In this document: in pieces, positions 1,039 to 61,206 of the stretch
Layout: the number at the start of each line of letters is the position of its first letter
Numbering within the stretch: the first letter of the stretch is position 1
Source: Neohoeflea coraliihabitans
GTDB taxonomy: Bacteria > Pseudomonadota > Alphaproteobacteria > Rhizobiales > Rhizobiaceae
Reading direction: 5' to 3'
Length of the DNA: 64,000 bases
NCBI RefSeq assembly: GCF_019334345.1
Contig: NZ_JAHWQX010000005.1
Location: 124,001 to 188,000 of the forward strand
The notes under the pieces: model-generated
Told to the model about the DNA's origin: nothing
What the model saw: only the letters and a program-made list of their open reading frames with translations
Database searches by the model: none
Program-made: the position numbers and the translations under genes

Positions 1039-1436
1039 TTTCCCGTCAGCAAGCTACTGGCAACGTTGATGTATTTGCGGCCGGCCTCCTGGGCCTCGTG
1101 AAGGGCGCGCCGCATGTCGTTGGCGGTCCGGATGCCGGCCAGCTTGATCAACATCGGCAGATTGACCCCTGCGATGACTTCAACGCGGCCGTCATCCATC
1201 ACCGAGATCGACAGATTGGATGGAGTGCCACCGAACATGTCGGTGAGAATGATCACTCCGTGGCCGTCCTCGGCACGCGAGACCGCTTCGACAATATCGA
1301 GCCGACGCTGATCCATGTCGTCTTCGGGCCCGATGCATACGGTTTCAAACCCCGTCTGCGGACCGACCACATGTTCCAGCGCGTGCCGGAACTCCTCAGC
1401 CAGCTTGCCGTGGGTGACAAGCACCAGACCGATCAT
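1035..1436 (-). CDS. PTS EIIA component, mannose family (ManX-like)
   Basis: 133 residues forming a single EIIA-Man domain. The phosphorylatable histidine is His9 in LVLVTHG, and the family motif LTDMFGGTPSN is present near residues 64-76. Without EIIB/C/D partners nearby it is probably regulatory, taking phosphate from HPr. It sits between hprK and ptsH, as in Sinorhizobium and Agrobacterium. It overlaps ptsH by 4 bp. The 176 bp between it and hprK contains no convincing gene. Confidence 0.93.
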   Translation of the reverse strand: MIGLVLVTHGKLAEEFRHALEHVVGPQTGFETVCIGPEDDMDQRRLDIVEAVSRAEDGHGVIILTDMFGGTPSNLSISVMDDGRVEVIAGVNLPMLIKLAGIRTANDMRRALHEAQEAGRKYINVASSLLTGK

Positions 1437-55793: not shown

Positions 55794-57470
55794 TCAAGCG
55801 AAAAAACCGTGCAGGAACCAGCGTGGCGTCGATGATTCCCTTTCGTAAAGCCCTTCGCGAAACAGCCAGTAGCGCCGCCCGGCCTCGTCCTCGACGCGGT
55901 AATAATCGCGGGTCGGAGCATTCTCGCCGTCATGCCACCATTCGGCGGCAATGCGTTCGGGACCTTCGGCGCGGGTGACGTGATGCGGGCTGCGGCGCCA
56001 GCGAAAGGTGACGGGAGGACCATCGGGAACTTCGGCCACCGCCGTCACCGGCTCGGGAGGGCGCAGCAAACGCAAGGGCCGCGCCGCGCCACTGACCGGC
56101 AGGAAAGTGCCGGCGTCATCTTCTCCTTTTGCAGATCCGCTCTGGGGAGAATTCAGTTTGTCGACATGGGGGACGTGATGCACCGATCGTTCGGGCACAT
56201 GGCTGTTGCCGGCCACCGGCACCTGAACGCGATCCGGGCCGAGGCGGGCAGCGAGCCGGTCGGCGAGAAGATGAAGGGGCAGATCGTCGCCCTGGGCAGC
56301 GCCCTCGAAATCGGTCTGACTGTCAGGCATCGGCTCGTAGTCGAGCACCGCCAGGCGAACCAGTTCAAAACCGTAGCCGGCATCGATTTCCTCATGCAGG
56401 CTGGCGATTCTTTCGGCGAAAAGCTGCTTGATCCGCAGGGGATCACGCAGCGGGCGGGCTGTGCCGACCCGGATGTGGCGCACGGCGCCATCAATGCGAA
56501 ACAGCGATAATTCTGCACGGCGCAGTCCGGCCGCGCGCCGGCTCAGCAAATCCTTCAGGCTTGCCGCCAGCTGGCCGCTCAGGGTGGTGATCGTCTCGAG
56601 ATCGATGAGCGGCTCGGCAAAGCGTCGTTCGGCGATCAACTCGGCCAAAGGCCGGCGGGGAGAAATCGGTTCCCCGTCCATGCCGGTCATGCGGTCGAGC
56701 CGCCGCAGCACCGTGCTGCCGAAGCGCCGGGCCAAGGGCGCGCGGGGGGCTGTCAACACGTCTTGCAGGCGCTTGAGTCCGACCCGCGCGAGGGCGGCGG
56801 TGGTTTCATCCGGCAGGCGCAGGCTGCTGATCGGCAGAGCCGGCATCAGGACGGCGATATCGGCGGGAGCGGCAATGCGGCCCGGTTGGTGGCGGGCCAA
56901 GGCCCAGGCCAGGGCCGGGGTCGGAGCGATGGCGCCCTGAACGGCAAAGCCAAAACCTTCAAGGCGTGTGATTGCGTCGTCAAGCATGGCGCGTTCACCG
57001 CCGAACAGATGAGCGCAGCCGGTGATGTCGAGGGCCAGCCCATCGGGACTATCGAGGCCGACCAGCGGCGTGTAGCGATCGGCCCAGTCGGCGAGCGCGA
57101 TGAGCAGCCGGTGATCGGCGGCGGGATCTGCCGGGGTCACATCGAGATCGGGACAGATGGCCCGCGCCTCGGCGACACCCTGGCCTATCCGCAAGCCACG
57201 GGTGGCGGCTTTCTCGTCGAGCGCGGCGAGCCGCAAAGCTCCCTTCAGCCGTTCGGCGCAGGCCAGCGGTTTGACGGCCGGGCGGCCGGCTTCAGGAGGC
57301 GCGGTCGAATGCCAGGAGGGTCCCAGGCGCTGGCGCCAGATCCTGTCGGTCGGAAGAGCGGGAAAAGCGAGAGCGAGAATCCGCCGGGTTTCCCCCAGCG
57401 GCAGTGAGGGCACCACCAGATCGGGTGTCTTCAGCGGTGCGGGTGGGGCGGATCTGGAAACGATGGTCAT
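55794..57470 (-). CDS. imuB: ImuB, Y-family polymerase-like mutasome adaptor
   Basis: 558 residues from ATG 57468-57470; upstream codons to 57524 are also open. The Y-family fold is recognisable (RRILALAFPALPTDRIWRQR, SPDGLALDITGCAHLFGGE, VLRRLDRM), but the N-terminal catalytic acidic residue of active Y-polymerases is missing, as known for ImuB. It links DnaE2 to the beta clamp. The 5' part overlaps imuA by about 180 bp in another frame. Confidence 0.93.
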   Translation of the reverse strand: MTIVSRSAPPAPLKTPDLVVPSLPLGETRRILALAFPALPTDRIWRQRLGPSWHSTAPPEAGRPAVKPLACAERLKGALRLAALDEKAATRGLRIGQGVAEARAICPDLDVTPADPAADHRLLIALADWADRYTPLVGLDSPDGLALDITGCAHLFGGERAMLDDAITRLEGFGFAVQGAIAPTPALAWALARHQPGRIAAPADIAVLMPALPISSLRLPDETTAALARVGLKRLQDVLTAPRAPLARRFGSTVLRRLDRMTGMDGEPISPRRPLAELIAERRFAEPLIDLETITTLSGQLAASLKDLLSRRAAGLRRAELSLFRIDGAVRHIRVGTARPLRDPLRIKQLFAERIASLHEEIDAGYGFELVRLAVLDYEPMPDSQTDFEGAAQGDDLPLHLLADRLAARLGPDRVQVPVAGNSHVPERSVHHVPHVDKLNSPQSGSAKGEDDAGTFLPVSGAARPLRLLRPPEPVTAVAEVPDGPPVTFRWRRSPHHVTRAEGPERIAAEWWHDGENAPTRDYYRVEDEAGRRYWLFREGLYERESSTPRWFLHGFFA

Positions 57471-58428
57471 GGGACAGCCATTCGAGAATGAGGGAAAGAC
57501 GGGCGGAGGCGCGGCTTTTTTCAAGAGTCACCTGCAACGCTGGCGCTCCGAGACTTCCGGCAAGAGGATGACCGGTGCGCGGGCCTTCAGAGCCGAGATG
57601 CCGCAGGGCGGCGGGCGCCGGACCAATGCAAAACCGCACCGGCGCGGCACTCGCCTCGGCGTCTGCTGCCTGACGCAGGAGCAGCAGCGGCTGGCGGCTG
57701 CTCCGGGCCCGGAAATGCAACCGGCGACTTTCGCTCAGGCCGAGCCGGGTCGGATTGCCGCGTATCTCGACAAGAATGATGGCGTTGTCCTTTTGTGGAG
57801 GCTGCTTTTCGTCCGACTGCCGAGGTGAAGAAGATGTGGTTGGAGCGCTGCTTGTGGAAAGGCTCTGGCAGGCGGTTGCGGCCGTTTCGGCTGCCCACAA
57901 GGCTTCCAGTTCGGTGCGCGGATGAATGACGAGCAGTTGCGGTGCCGGGGTGCCGGGACCGATGGCAAGAAGATCGAGCAAGCCGGGCAGCCAGAGATCC
58001 CCGCCTTCGCGCAGGGTTTGCGGGGCGCTGATCCAGACCAGCGGCCGCGGCTTTGCGGGCGCCTCACTGAAGCGGGCAATCAGCATGGCGGCAAAGGCGC
58101 TGACAAGGCCCCAGTCGCGGGTCTGTTCGCAGCGGATTTCGATCAGGCCGGCGCGGGGCAGGCCGCCCCCCAGGGCTGCATCGAAAGGAGCCACCCCGAG
58201 CGGCAGCTGGTCTGCCGCAGGGTCTGGCGCCGCGGCAAAACCCGCATCGCCGACCGGCAGGGAATGCGGCACCTCTGGTGTGAAAGCCACTGTCAAAAAA
58301 GCAGACTCTCTGAGGATATGAGGCGTCTTTGGCGGCACCACCAAGGTGGCAGCCGCCGCCTTGTCGAGGCTGGCAATGGCCTGGTGCAGCGCATGCCGAG
58401 AGCGCTGCGCCGCTTGCGGGGTCGCCAC
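57292..58428 (-). CDS. imuA: ImuA, SOS mutasome protein (RecA/SulA-like)
   Basis: 378 residues from a GTG at 58426-58428, with CAGGAG upstream. RecA-like core without a full Walker A: PLGVAPFDAALGGGLPRAGLIEI, LVWISAPQTLREGGDL, and the C-terminal LSLILEWLSHDHRFQIRPTR. First gene of the LexA-controlled imuA-imuB-dnaE2 operon; the last ~60 codons overlap imuB. A LexA box is 17 bp upstream of the start. Confidence 0.92.
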   Translation of the reverse strand: MATPQAAQRSRHALHQAIASLDKAAAATLVVPPKTPHILRESAFLTVAFTPEVPHSLPVGDAGFAAAPDPAADQLPLGVAPFDAALGGGLPRAGLIEIRCEQTRDWGLVSAFAAMLIARFSEAPAKPRPLVWISAPQTLREGGDLWLPGLLDLLAIGPGTPAPQLLVIHPRTELEALWAAETAATACQSLSTSSAPTTSSSPRQSDEKQPPQKDNAIILVEIRGNPTRLGLSESRRLHFRARSSRQPLLLLRQAADAEASAAPVRFCIGPAPAALRHLGSEGPRTGHPLAGSLGAPALQVTLEKSRASARLSLILEWLSHDHRFQIRPTRTAEDTRSGGALTAAGGNPADSRSRFSRSSDRQDLAPAPGTLLAFDRAS

Positions 58429-58444: not shown

Positions 58445-58459
58445 GTTCCTGTTATGTTC
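58445..58459. promoter_or_regulatory. Alphaproteobacterial LexA (SOS) box of imuA
   Basis: GTTC-CTGTTAT-GTTC matches the alphaproteobacterial LexA motif GTTC-N7-GTTC exactly and lies 17 bp upstream of imuA. Confidence 0.93.
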
Positions 58460-58503: not shown

Positions 58504-58537
58504 GGAATTTATTGGCGATATTATATTTGACAAACCC
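58504..58537. repeat. Left terminal inverted repeat of the IS1595 element
   Basis: Starts GGAATTTATTGGCG and ends TTGACAAACCC. It contains an inward-facing TTGACA (58527-58532) that, with GATAAC 17 bp downstream (58550-58555), can serve the transposase. Confidence 0.93.
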
Positions 58538-58587
58538 AACATGATATGCGATAACTAACTCAACAAGTTAGCGATTCGGTGAATTTC

Positions 58588-59550
58588 ATGTCCGTACTGA
58601 GCAAGGAATATTTTCATAACGAGGCAGCGGCCTTTGAGCATGTCGAGCGCATCCTGTGGCCTAAAGGCCCGGTCTGCCCGCACTGTGGAAATGACAAGCG
58701 TATTTACAAGCTGGAGGGTGTCCGCTCCAAGCCTTCGAAGAAGAACCCTGAGGGCGTCGAGCGTCACGGCCTGAAAAAGTGCGCGGCATGCCGGAAGCAG
58801 TTCACCGTTCGCATTGGCACCATCTTTGAGGAAAGCCACATACCGCTGCACAAGTGGCTGCAGGCCATTCACCTGATGTGTTCCAGCAAGAAGGGCATCA
58901 GTTCGAACCAGCTTCACCGCGTTCTTGAAATCACTCTCAAGAGCGCGTGGTTTCTGTCGCACCGGATCCGCGAGGCGATGCGCACTGGCGTTTTCGATAC
59001 CCCGCTCGGTGGCAATGGCAAGATCGTAGAGGCCGACGAAACTTTCATTGGTCGCAAGAAGGGCTTCCAGAAGAAGGGCGGCGGCGCTGGCCACAAGATG
59101 ACTGTCATGAGCCTTGTGGAGCGTGGCGGTGATGTTCGCTCGGTTGTCCTCGACCGCATCACGAAGGTAGGCATCAGCAAGGTCATTGCGGACAATGTTC
59201 ACCACGAAAGCCGGCTAATGACTGACACCGCTTCCTACTACATGAAGCGCGATTTCAACGTCGCCGGTCACGAAATGGTCAACCATTATCGGGGCGAATA
59301 CGTCCGCGAGGACGTCTACACGAACACGCTGGAAGGCTTCTACAGCATCTTCAAGCGAGGCATGAAGGGCGTTTATCAGCATTGCGCCGAGAAACACCTG
59401 CATCGTTATGCTGCTGAGTTCGATTTCAGGTACAACAACCGGACCGCTCGCGGTGTGAACGATAGCGAGCGGGCAATGAACGCGCTGATTGGCGTGAGCG
59501 GGAAACGGCTCACATACGATCAAGCTAATCCAGCCGGACAAGCGCTTTGA
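58588..59550 (+). CDS. IS1595-family transposase
   Basis: 320 residues from ATG 58588 (MSVLSKEYFHNEAAAFEHVE); a GTG three codons earlier is possible. N-terminal zinc ribbon: CPHCGNDK and CAACRKQFTVRIGTIFEESH. DDE/N catalytic domain: GKIVEADETFIGRKKG, the middle Asp in LMTDTASYYM, and YTNTLEGFYSIFKRGMKGVY. It ends with GKRLTYDQAN. Intact and apparently functional. Confidence 0.95.
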   Translation: MSVLSKEYFHNEAAAFEHVERILWPKGPVCPHCGNDKRIYKLEGVRSKPSKKNPEGVERHGLKKCAACRKQFTVRIGTIFEESHIPLHKWLQAIHLMCSSKKGISSNQLHRVLEITLKSAWFLSHRIREAMRTGVFDTPLGGNGKIVEADETFIGRKKGFQKKGGGAGHKMTVMSLVERGGDVRSVVLDRITKVGISKVIADNVHHESRLMTDTASYYMKRDFNVAGHEMVNHYRGEYVREDVYTNTLEGFYSIFKRGMKGVYQHCAEKHLHRYAAEFDFRYNNRTARGVNDSERAMNALIGVSGKRLTYDQANPAGQAL

Positions 59551-59581
59551 GCGTTGGGTGCAGTTAGATATCTGGCCACTA

Positions 59582-59606
59582 AAAACATTTCGTAAGCGGA
59601 ACGAAA
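59582..59606 (-). terminator. Possible terminator for the leftward DUF3800 transcript
   Basis: On the minus strand a 6-bp stem TTTCGT / ACGAAA (59606-59588) with a 7-base loop is followed by TGTTTTT. The stem is weak, so confidence is modest. Confidence 0.4.
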
Positions 59607-59616
59607 ACTAGAATCC

Positions 59617-59645
59617 TTGACGAGTCACGCAGAAGTCGCTATATA
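59617..59645 (+). promoter_or_regulatory. Candidate promoter in the transposase-DUF3800 gap
   Basis: TTGACG (59617-59622), 17-bp spacer, TATATA (59640-59645). Predicted transcript would start just before the three-way fold and run antisense to DUF3800. Confidence 0.45.
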
Positions 59646-59651
59646 CGGTTT

Positions 59652-59696
59652 GCCGGGGATACGTCGAAACGTATCAGGGCCAAAAGCCCACCCGGC
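59652..59696. other. Three-way-junction inverted-repeat structure, possible structured RNA
   Basis: Outer helix GCCGGG (59652-59657) / CCCGGC (59691-59696) encloses two hairpins: GATACGT / ACGTATC (59658-59664, 59669-59675; loop CGAA, or UUCG on the other strand) and GGGC / GCCC (59677-59680, 59686-59689). All stems are perfect. It lies 2 bp past the DUF3800 stop, so it is either the 3' UTR of that mRNA or the start of an opposing RNA. A DNA cruciform or recombination site is another possibility. Confidence 0.6.
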
Positions 59697-59698
59697 GG

Positions 59699-60463
59699 CT
59701 ACTCCCAACCATTCTTTGGAAATTTGACTAGGCCAAAGCCGTTGATTGAGCCGTCATCCTTCTTTCTGAAAGAGGGCTTTATGACTTCGAAGAATGTAGA
59801 GTCATTTTGATTGAATGCTCGGCCTATCGCCCCGGACACCATGTCTGCAATTTGCACGCCGATGCTCATATGTGACGGCGTAAGAAAAATGCATTCTACG
59901 AAATTATCGTAATTGCTGACATACGCATTTTCTACCTCGATCATGTCGAGGTGGTTAAGCCGAAAATTTTCGTCTTGTTTGCGTCCCCGATGATCTCCAA
60001 CAACGATGCCGAGCTGCGTATTGCCAACAGTTCGACTTAGATCTTGAAGATGGTACTGGAAGCGCTCTGATACCGGCTTGTACGTGTAATGATAAAGGGC
60101 TTCAGCATCCTCAACGATTGTGAGCCTGTAAGCGGCTACGACGCTAGCCACGCAAGCCACTATCTTCACGCTTTTGCGCTTTATGATAATATTGAAATAG
60201 TCGCGTCGAAAGCGATCCTTGGCCTCTTGGCTTAGGTGGGACACGGAGTTTGATGGATCTGTGTTCTGCGGTCCAAAATATCGCCATTTGATTTCGCCGC
60301 TTATGTTGTATTCTGGACGAGCGCATAATTGGCGAACTTCGGCGGCGATGCCGTGCCATTGTGACTCATGCATAATGACGCCCCCAATTACGAAATAGGG
60401 GTTCGACTTTTTTGAATCTGGCTTTGGCGGCGTACCGCTTTCATCAATAAAGCAGAAGTGCAT
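59699..60463 (-). CDS. DUF3800 protein, IS passenger
   Basis: 254 residues. Family hallmarks: N-terminal FCFIDESGTPP, internal GIVVGDHRGRKQD, and C-terminal GVQIADMVSGAIGRAF; the spaced acidic residues suggest an RNase-H-like nuclease fold, unproven. Codon use is more AT-rich than the host genes. DUF3800 genes are recurrent passengers of IS1595-type elements. Its start codon is 6 bp from that of the divergent 47-residue ORF. Confidence 0.85.
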   Translation of the reverse strand: MHFCFIDESGTPPKPDSKKSNPYFVIGGVIMHESQWHGIAAEVRQLCARPEYNISGEIKWRYFGPQNTDPSNSVSHLSQEAKDRFRRDYFNIIIKRKSVKIVACVASVVAAYRLTIVEDAEALYHYTYKPVSERFQYHLQDLSRTVGNTQLGIVVGDHRGRKQDENFRLNHLDMIEVENAYVSNYDNFVECIFLTPSHMSIGVQIADMVSGAIGRAFNQNDSTFFEVIKPSFRKKDDGSINGFGLVKFPKNGWE

Positions 60464-60469
60464 CTACAT

Positions 60470-60613
60470 ATGACACAACCAAGCGACAAAAAGAGTCAAG
60501 TGGACAAGTTCAAAGAGGCCGCTCGCGACCTGGAAACAGACGACGACGAGAAGCGCTTTGACGAGAAACTTAGGCGAGTAGCGAAGGGTACAGATAAAAA
60601 GCGGGAAGACTAG
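60470..60613 (+). CDS. 47-residue charged protein, IS passenger
   Basis: ATG 60470 to TAG 60613. Begins MTQPSDKKSQVDKFKEAARD and is extremely charged (Lys/Asp/Glu/Arg over half of residues), probably helical. Divergent from DUF3800 with 6 bp between start codons, so its leader lies in the DUF3800 5' coding region; GCAGAAG is a weak ribosome binding site. Its TAG stop is shared as CTAG with the convergent HNH gene. Function unknown; a partner of DUF3800 is conceivable. Confidence 0.65.
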   Translation: MTQPSDKKSQVDKFKEAARDLETDDDEKRFDEKLRRVAKGTDKKRED

Positions 60614-61122
60614 AGTTCGTGCAGGTCTAGCTCATCTATGAATGCCTTGCCTTTTTCGCTGATTGTAAGCAAGCAGGGCGCAGACTGCATTCCACCGATA
60701 AATACTCCGCCCTGTGGTTGCTGAACGTGCAGGTAGCCTGCGTCTAACAGTCTTTTTATCAGCAGCATGTTGAAGGCTGGCCATTGAGCGCCTTGGCCTT
60801 GTGGAAGCTTTGCGACCTCAAAAAGAACATCAATTTCGACTTGGGAGAACTTGTCATGCGCGAACCGCAGGTTGGCCTTGTAGAGCCGCAGACTCTTACG
60901 ATCAATCTCCCCTTTGTCGGCGCGCCTGTGGCAGTTCGGACAGAGGGCGATGAGGTTGTCATACTCATGCGCTTGACACTTCGCCCACTGGATAATGTGG
61001 TGAATATCGACCTCGATGTATCGGCAAGTGGGGATGGCGCACCGGTGCCCCGCTTCGACGAGAACGCGCCTCCTGATTTCAGCAGGTATTGGCGGGCGCC
61101 TCTCTCCGTCTGAGCAACTCAT
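60610..61122 (-). CDS. HNH endonuclease, IS passenger
   Basis: 170 residues from ATG 61120-61122 with AGGATCTATA upstream; a TTG six codons earlier is possible. HNH core: GHRCAIPTCRYIEVDIHHIIQ, then YDNLIALCPNCHRRADKGEI with the zinc cysteines and the catalytic His pair. The C-terminal half resembles a winged-helix. A nuclease that might help target or homing, by inference. Convergent and stop-overlapping with the 47-residue ORF. Confidence 0.85.
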   Translation of the reverse strand: MSCSDGERRPPIPAEIRRRVLVEAGHRCAIPTCRYIEVDIHHIIQWAKCQAHEYDNLIALCPNCHRRADKGEIDRKSLRLYKANLRFAHDKFSQVEIDVLFEVAKLPQGQGAQWPAFNMLLIKRLLDAGYLHVQQPQGGVFIGGMQSAPCLLTISEKGKAFIDELDLHEL

Positions 61123-61172
61123 TATAGATCCTAAACTCAATTAGAGATTCCCACATAAACATATTCTCACTC

Positions 61173-61206
61173 GGGTTTGTCAAATATAATATCGCCAATT
61201 TATTCC
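61173..61206. repeat. Right terminal inverted repeat of the IS1595 element
   Basis: Reverse complement begins GGAATAAATTGGCG and ends TTGACAAACCC; differs from the left end only at positions 6-7. Its inward TTGACA could contribute to HNH transcription. Confidence 0.93.

Follow-up and report, generated by a model that had tools for sequence, protein, structure and literature searches.

The 64,000-nt stretch of Neohoeflea coraliihabitans DNA analysed here, hereafter the window, very probably contains an autonomous small-RNA gene at positions 59617–59698 of the plus strand, as read from its sequence and from those of related loci. We interpret this region as a small-RNA gene, and not as a transposition site or an mRNA 3' element, because relatives carry three-way junctions on the strand opposite to a neighbouring DUF3800 gene, because the stems of these junctions covary, and because a P2-loop motif and a promoter signal accompany them. 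With its own promoter signal and a covarying fold next to DUF3800, the gene falls into the broad class of DUF3800-associated small RNAs. The best explanation of the whole, which we hold with moderate confidence, is that the RNA gene and DUF3800 would form a co-inherited module in which the RNA inhibits the protein.

The gene lies inside a transposon (58514–61196) with perfect 24-nt terminal inverted repeats (left, GGCGATATTATATTTGACAAACCC, 58514–58537, plus strand; right, 61173–61196, minus strand), and flanked by an 8-bp target-site duplication, AATTTATT, at 58506–58513 and 61197–61204. Its transposase (58588–59550, plus strand) matches PF12762 (1.9e-28), PF12760 (1.6e-11) and NF033547 (185 bits, for a cut-off of 75 bits). 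The element thus has the transposase, the terminal inverted repeats and the 8-bp duplication of the IS1595 family, and the name IS1595 given to it in an earlier reading of the DNA, based on sequence only, was correct. Besides the transposase, the transposon carries a DUF3800 protein gene (59699–60463, minus strand; PF12686, 3.6e-17), whose product is predicted to have an RNase H2-like fold, and an HNH endonuclease passenger (60610–61140, minus strand; PF01844, 2.4e-8), for which no similar gene was found among the other loci compared. A comparison of loci also revealed a charged 47-aa ORF divergent from DUF3800 (60470–60613, plus strand). This ORF is present in seven other loci (L008, L014, L027, L035, L069, L070 and L072), which amount to six distinct IS1595 elements with DUF3800, L008 and L014 being the same element; it was not found in L015, and the elements that have it carry differing RNA types. 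A search of plasmids with the whole element matched parts of the transposase only. The insertion place of the transposon is immediately upstream of an SOS-type promoter: a GTTC-N7-GTTC site, one of two in the whole window and one that we take to be the alphaproteobacterial LexA box motif, occurs at 58445–58459, between the insertion and the start of a minus-strand gene (57292–58428) that presumably heads an imuA-imuB-dnaE2-like cluster.

The fold lies within the element, 100 nt beyond the transposase stop. On the plus strand, P1 pairs GCCGGG (59652–59657) with CCCGGC (59691–59696) over 6 bp and is flanked by two G-T pairs (59650–59651/59697–59698); it encloses P2, 7 bp between GATACGT (59658–59664) and ACGTATC (59669–59675) with the loop CGAA, and P3, 4 bp between GGGC (59677–59680) and GCCC (59686–59689). 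The core (59652–59696) is 45 nt long, with A59676 and A59690 as its sole unpaired junction bases, and the stop codon of DUF3800 (59699–59701, minus strand) touches the fold. Based on the stems, the covariation and the shuffle tests, we annotate 59650–59698 (plus strand) as a putative DUF3800-associated three-way-junction small RNA. Upstream, a –35 box TTGACG (59617–59622) and a –10 box TATATA (59640–59645), separated by a 17-nt spacer, point at the fold; 6 nt separate the –10 box from the first stem, and the predicted start is at about 59652. The nested stems of 6, 7 and 4 bp past the DUF3800 stop and the TTGACG-N17-TATATA promoter, both noticed in the sequence-only reading, were therefore confirmed. 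By consensus this promoter is ordinary, and it owes its weight to the relatives, which share the signal; a sigma70 scan, which demands a T at the last –10 position, did not list it.

Folded as RNA, the 80-nt segment had a z-score of –2.64, with 1 of 200 shuffles equally good, and the reverse strand behaved similarly (z –2.51). A strict junction descriptor, requiring perfect stems of at least 6, 7 and 4 bp and at most 2 unpaired junction bases, matched once in the 64-kb window, at the coordinates of the fold itself, and gave 3 matches in 40 dinucleotide-shuffled windows (0.075 per window). An Rfam search with the window RNA returned no family over its cut-off. Membership in a known Rfam family was ruled out, the sub-threshold matches to InvR elsewhere in the element (18 bits) and to hammerhead-III on P2 (14.9 bits) being far below their cut-offs. 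A REP-like dispersed repeat was also rejected: the genome holds one other full copy, and the three remaining matches span 14–19 nt.

A DUF3800 protein scan of genome contigs yielded 23 relatives (L014–L036) from Alpha-, Beta- and Gammaproteobacteria, Actinobacteria, an Acidiferrales MAG and a Sedimentisphaerales MAG. In every one of the 23, the strand opposite to DUF3800 bears a junction built on the same plan, located at the gene's 3' end and, in 22 of them, between 1 nt inside and 45 nt past the stop; in L036, where the DUF3800 match is split over two frames, the covariance model R1 described below places the junction just beyond the end of the match. The same arrangement was found in six of six viral-contig loci, three of which (L038–L040) have one common sequence at the fold, read by eye. 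The automatic junction descriptor misplaced the folds of L018, L025, L036 and L038, and these were corrected from R1 for L036 and by eye for the others. Nucleotide searches gave no match for the window gap among phages and plasmids, nor for the RNA of L041 among E. coli, plasmids and phages (blastn), and the exact window core was absent from the viral contigs searched.

The sequence-only reading had suggested looking for covariation in related elements, and the stems do covary. In an alignment of 20 sequences from which the window's own clade was left out (A2), 95.5% of the cells are paired and 52 cells are changed on both sides, compared with 16.9 in shuffles; the covariation score is 0.443 vs 0.180 in shuffles, none of 500 being as high, and it collapses once the partners are slid by 1–3 columns. 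Counting pairs that show double changes gives a milder excess (9, compared with 6.6 in shuffles, and reached in 21 of 500 of them). All but one of the 20 rows have a P2 loop that starts with G-Y-C-R, as has the window (GTCG). Within the window clade (window, L008, L015 and L037), which comprises four sequences only and in which P3 of L037 is one column out of register, 97% of the pairs are kept and 4 are changed on both sides.

R1, built from the 20 A2 sequences and hence without the window's clade, recovered the held-out DUF3800-adjacent loci L036 (58.8 bits), L083 (65.5), L110 (60.1) and L111 (58.4). The window fold was its top match within the window, with 18.8 bits and an E-value of 0.28 in 255 kb; the closest relatives of the window (L008, L014, L015 and L037) and L027 were not reported at E ≤ 10. 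By these scores the window clade is a divergent branch, and it is therefore from position, strand, architecture, promoter and the covariation of its own four sequences that its homology to the other junctions is argued. Over 43 sources, R1 gave three matches of 12.7–13.6 bits away from DUF3800, two in the window and one in L025. Among 23 viral loci retrieved with an 18-nt pattern, nine matched at E ≤ 1; six of these scored strongly and lay next to DUF3800, five being on contigs already in the viral-contig set mentioned above. The weak viral matches L079, L081 and L090, near which no DUF3800 was detected, are probably due to chance. A search of 398 genomes with R1 gave no match, its filters being too strict, as the window's own genome with its known copy was also missed.

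Several observations indicate which strand is read. In the A2 stems, the proposed RNA strand shows 17 G-U against 2 A-C juxtapositions. Using a set of promoter weights and taking the best score in the 50 nt upstream of each of 30 loci, the summed score was 229, compared with 103 ± 11 in dinucleotide shuffles (maximum 128 of 200) and with 49 on the reverse strand. Promoters were individually significant (p ≤ 0.05) in 16 of the 30 loci, with p-values of 0.005 for the window and 0.385 for its nearest relative, L008. The end of the –10 box lies 6 nt from P1 in 14 loci and 4–8 nt from it in 26. Given this fixed distance, transcription probably begins with the first base of P1, leaving no space for a 5' guide. 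At the other end, a TTTT follows P1' within 12 nt in 9 of 29 relatives when the RNA strand is read, and in 1 of 29 when the opposite strand is; those nine junctions can also serve as terminators of their own RNA, and the window RNA has no such T-run. A simple bidirectional terminator was ruled out, the T-runs being found chiefly on one strand. In the P3 loops of the 26 rows with a correctly placed fold, read on the RNA strand, GNRA occurs in 11 and UACG in 4, both of them known loop classes; the window loop, CAAAA, is neither. Covarying stems, a promoter at fixed distance and the excess of G-U over A-C bear out the suggestion of the sequence-only reading that the transposon encodes an RNA.

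RNAs associated with DUF3800 are already described in Rfam (RF02915, RF02967 and RF02968), and the DUF3800 motifs were reportedly first presented by Weinberg et al. in 2017; the searched portions of the DUF3800 literature gave no stated function for the RNAs adjacent to this gene. The closest known RNA is RF02915 (DUF3800-VI); it and the window RNA share the P1-P2-P3 junction order and both adjoin a DUF3800 gene, P1 being 8 bp in the RF02915 model and 6 bp plus two G-U in the window. Judging from sequence scores, the window RNA is a divergent variant: RF02915 aligned at full length with the convergent relatives L016 (32.3 bits), L024 (31.8) and L035 (29.5), which approach its membership cut-off of 35 bits, and the window RNA, short of that cut-off, gave no match at E ≤ 10. 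RF02967 (DUF3800-VII) and RF02968 (DUF3800-IX) resemble the window RNA in being convergent with DUF3800 and located at its 3' end, but differ from it in sequence and have larger models (90 and 67 positions, respectively).

We examined six RF02915 loci scoring over the cut-off (L052, L044, L045, L046, L073 and L074). In these six the RNA precedes DUF3800 (in L074, a DUF3800-like start only) and is read in the same direction, whereas the RNA of the window sits past the gene's 3' end and faces it. Profile searches placed DUF3800 just behind the RNA and on its strand in five loci, L074 being the exception, and a terminator follows the RNA in all except L052, so that the order RNA, terminator and DUF3800 ORF is seen in four (L073, L044, L045 and L046). 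Promoter-like pairs precede all six RNAs, with less regularity (2–4 mismatches). Rfam 15 gives the type of RF02915 as Cis-reg and that of RF02967 and RF02968 as sRNA; because of the promoter-like pairs upstream and the terminators downstream, sRNA may be the better type for RF02915 as well, and we favour it for all these DUF3800 RNAs. In L074, two DUF3800-VI RNAs stand in tandem (1448–1551), 5 nt apart and followed by a terminator; only a DUF3800-like start was recognised there by eye, with no intact ORF, an arrangement reminiscent of repeated antitoxin RNAs next to a gene in decay. Two further loci, L075 and L076, gave RF02915 matches under the cut-off, and DUF3800 was not found in them.

The layout of RF02915 bears on two readings in which the RNA would act through the DUF3800 transcript. 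An mRNA-stabilising 3' element, one of the options of the sequence-only reading, disagrees with a promoter on the strand opposite to DUF3800 and with RF02915 RNAs lying upstream of the gene. A regulator acting in cis, either by silencing the DUF3800 mRNA through pairing with its 3' end or by hairpins that end convergent transcription, would suit a convergent RNA adjoining the stop codon and the bias of T-runs towards one strand. Such pairing, however, needs no covarying three-way junction, and the related RF02915 RNAs, on the same strand as DUF3800 and upstream of it, could not form antisense pairs with it; we consider this regulator improbable.

Whether the RNA belongs to the transposon or to DUF3800 can be judged from the exchange of modules among IS1595 elements. 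Complete elements with 8-bp duplications were delimited in the window, L014, L027, L069, L070 and L072. Among eight elements, the transposase of L072 is the nearest to that of the window (71%), yet the two DUF3800 proteins share only 19% identity; where the window has its RNA, L072 carries, in the same orientation, a DUF3800-VII RNA (RF02967; 47.4 bits, cut-off 36.2), with TTGATA-N17-TATCTT 7 nt upstream. Conversely, L015 has the most distant transposase of the eight (55%), a DUF3800 that is 63% identical and an RNA of the window's type. Likewise, L035 has an IS1595 transposase, yet shares its RNA type with L016 and L024, in whose fetched DNA no such transposase occurs. Across 27 loci, RNA and DUF3800 distances are correlated (Mantel r 0.69, 0 of 5000 permutations as high), a correlation that would also arise from joint inheritance without contact. 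Because the RNA type changes with DUF3800 within IS1595 and the distances correlate, we regard the RNA, from these comparisons, as the companion of DUF3800, the IS1595 transposon carrying the module as cargo. In the same slot, the gaps of L069 (1260–1383) and L070 (1066–1299), whose DUF3800 proteins are about 20% identical to that of the window, are predicted to fold and have no Rfam match; they are candidates for further DUF3800 RNA types.

A structure used in IS1595 transposition, or an IS-encoded regulator of the transposase, would agree with the position of the fold inside the element, beyond the transposase stop. The RNA type nevertheless follows DUF3800 and not the transposase, and no similar transposase was found in the fetched DNA of 19 of 23 relatives (some loci being short), in which the fold is present; this alternative appears highly improbable. 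Of what the sequence-only reading had put forward, the IS-encoded RNA is thus supported, the mRNA 3' element and the DNA structure for transposition are not, and recognition by DUF3800 survives as a conjecture.

The DUF3800 protein was modelled with AlphaFold2 from 28 sequences (mean pLDDT 91.2, pTM 0.90) and is predicted to adopt an RNase H2 fold. RNase H2 was the best fold match (Foldseek 4.5e-5 to 2dff; Z 12.3, rmsd 3.2 and 165 aligned residues with 3puf_D), the RNase H domains of Argonaute/Piwi proteins coming lower in the list (Z 7–8); a sequence search of solved structures gave nothing useful. Residues D7, E8, D157 and D207 are invariant in the 28 proteins and, by likeness to the DEDD residues of RNase H2, may form the active site. 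PADLOC matched the window protein to PDC-M04A (best 1.4e-11). The RNase H fold of DUF3800 and its tie to putative ncRNAs were noted in earlier reports (PMC10910872, PMC12669027).

We propose that a sigma70-type promoter would drive synthesis of an RNA from the first base of P1, folding into a three-way junction made of P1, P2 with its G-Y-C-R loop and a variable P3. The RNA gene, convergent with DUF3800, would form with it one co-inherited module carried as cargo by the IS1595 transposon. Acting in trans as the dedicated partner of DUF3800, a predicted RNase H2-fold nuclease, the RNA would bind the protein via the junction and the P2 loop and keep it inactive in the manner of an RNA antitoxin, so that protein and RNA together would work as an addiction or defence module carried by a mobile element. 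Promoter geometry, covariation, strand, cross-phylum linkage to DUF3800 and module swapping in IS1595 are read from the sequences; we infer transcription and direct binding to DUF3800, with inhibition as the most likely outcome. That the RNA is a dedicated partner of DUF3800 is likely. That it is an inhibitor or antitoxin, rather than an activator or cofactor, is a tentative proposal, made because of the type III-like layout of four RF02915 loci and of the AbiF precedent, and put slightly lower because of L074, with its tandem RNAs and no intact DUF3800.

The folds of ToxN and Abi_2 differ from the RNase H2 fold predicted for DUF3800. The parallel with ToxIN (type III) and AbiF/RCd22 lies in the pairing of a structured RNA with a nuclease or toxic protein on mobile elements. 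In the layout described for type III toxin-antitoxin loci (PMC5086642), RNA, terminator and ORF follow in the order seen in four of the six RF02915 loci. The window differs from it, its RNA being single-copy and convergent, whereas type III loci form an operon of tandem repeats, terminator and toxin ORF. RCd22, an RNA with two abiF motifs, is described as the RNA antitoxin of a prophage protein (PMC12373285). No literature on type III systems with a three-way junction was found.

The main rival to inhibition, which we judge rather unlikely, is a ribonucleoprotein effector in which the DUF3800 nuclease would use the RNA as an activating or structural cofactor. Linkage, swapping and fold speak equally for it, an RNA-activated enzyme fitting the same data; Argonaute/Piwi RNase H domains appear in the fold list, and DUF3800 is reported in Cas12a2 (V-A2) and VI-F loci, as an accessory nuclease in some CRISPR loci (PMC10910872, PMC12669027). 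A start at P1, on the other hand, leaves no 5' spacer, and any targeting would therefore need a 3' extension or the RNA structure itself. The T-runs after P1' in nine relatives leave no 3' guide, although in the window, which has no T-run, a 3' extension is possible. The RNAs of TnpB and IscB (IS200/IS605-type elements) are likewise structured and encoded in a transposon, next to a gene whose product has an RNase H fold. The window RNA differs from them in having no visible 5' guide, an element-internal position, its own promoter, an orientation facing the gene, and DUF3800 as its partner.

Besides the inhibitory module that we prefer, the genome offers a second copy of the RNA. The 130-nt segment at 59584–59713 (plus strand), which comprises the promoter, the RNA and the last DUF3800 codons, recurs at G000:C1:1316–1445 on the minus strand with 126 of 130 bases identical (97%), among prophage genes for replication initiation, RusA and tail proteins. 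The genome has a single DUF3800 match, and the prophage copy has none beside it. In 6 kb of the prophage no credible IS1595 end was found, the one weak match having 8 mismatches. The two copies agree at every position of promoter and RNA (0 of 82 changed) and differ at 4 of 48 positions of the flanks (Fisher p 0.017, for segment ends set by the alignment).

This copy could be a selected decoy that neutralises DUF3800 modules in a pseudo-ToxI manner, a doubtful proposal that would add to the inhibitory module. The unchanged promoter and RNA between changed flanks, the prophage genes around them and the single DUF3800 match are in its favour, and phage phiTE offers a precedent for phages using RNA antitoxin mimics (PMC3475682), RNA anti-CRISPRs being another case (PMC10651486). 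Against it, this is a single case with alignment-set ends, and by eye the copy retains the last codons of the DUF3800 gene; a decayed module is therefore as likely as a selected capture, and a recent IS exchange may also account for it. No other copy lacking DUF3800 was found in 394 and 297 family genomes (overlapping draws) by a search that detects close copies only, and a search for phages resembling the prophage matched only a RusA gene, in 4 records. The orphan RNA is directly adjoined by an element of about 78 nt (L006, about 1237–1313, minus strand), which is 77–81% conserved in three other family genomes (L103, 1501–1578; L104, 1501–1579; L107, 1501–1570) and shows apparent compensatory changes in its inner helix (GATGTTCGG/CCGAACATC and GATGTGAGGC/GCCTTACATC); judging from these sequences, it may be another structured prophage RNA, unrelated to the first.

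More broadly, DUF3800 and its RNA might represent a new RNase H2-fold toxin-antitoxin or anti-phage cassette moving among IS1595 elements, viral contigs and chromosomes of several phyla, with phages capturing its promoter-RNA half alone as an antidote, of which the prophage of this genome would be an example, an extension that we regard as unlikely on present grounds. If the RNA is independent, with a defined start, and belongs to the DUF3800 protein and not to the transposon, and if this protein is RNase H2-like, the question of what these RNAs do is narrowed. A direct experimental handle on it would be offered by this genome, in which a lone DUF3800 gene coexists with two identical copies of the RNA, one of them in a prophage.
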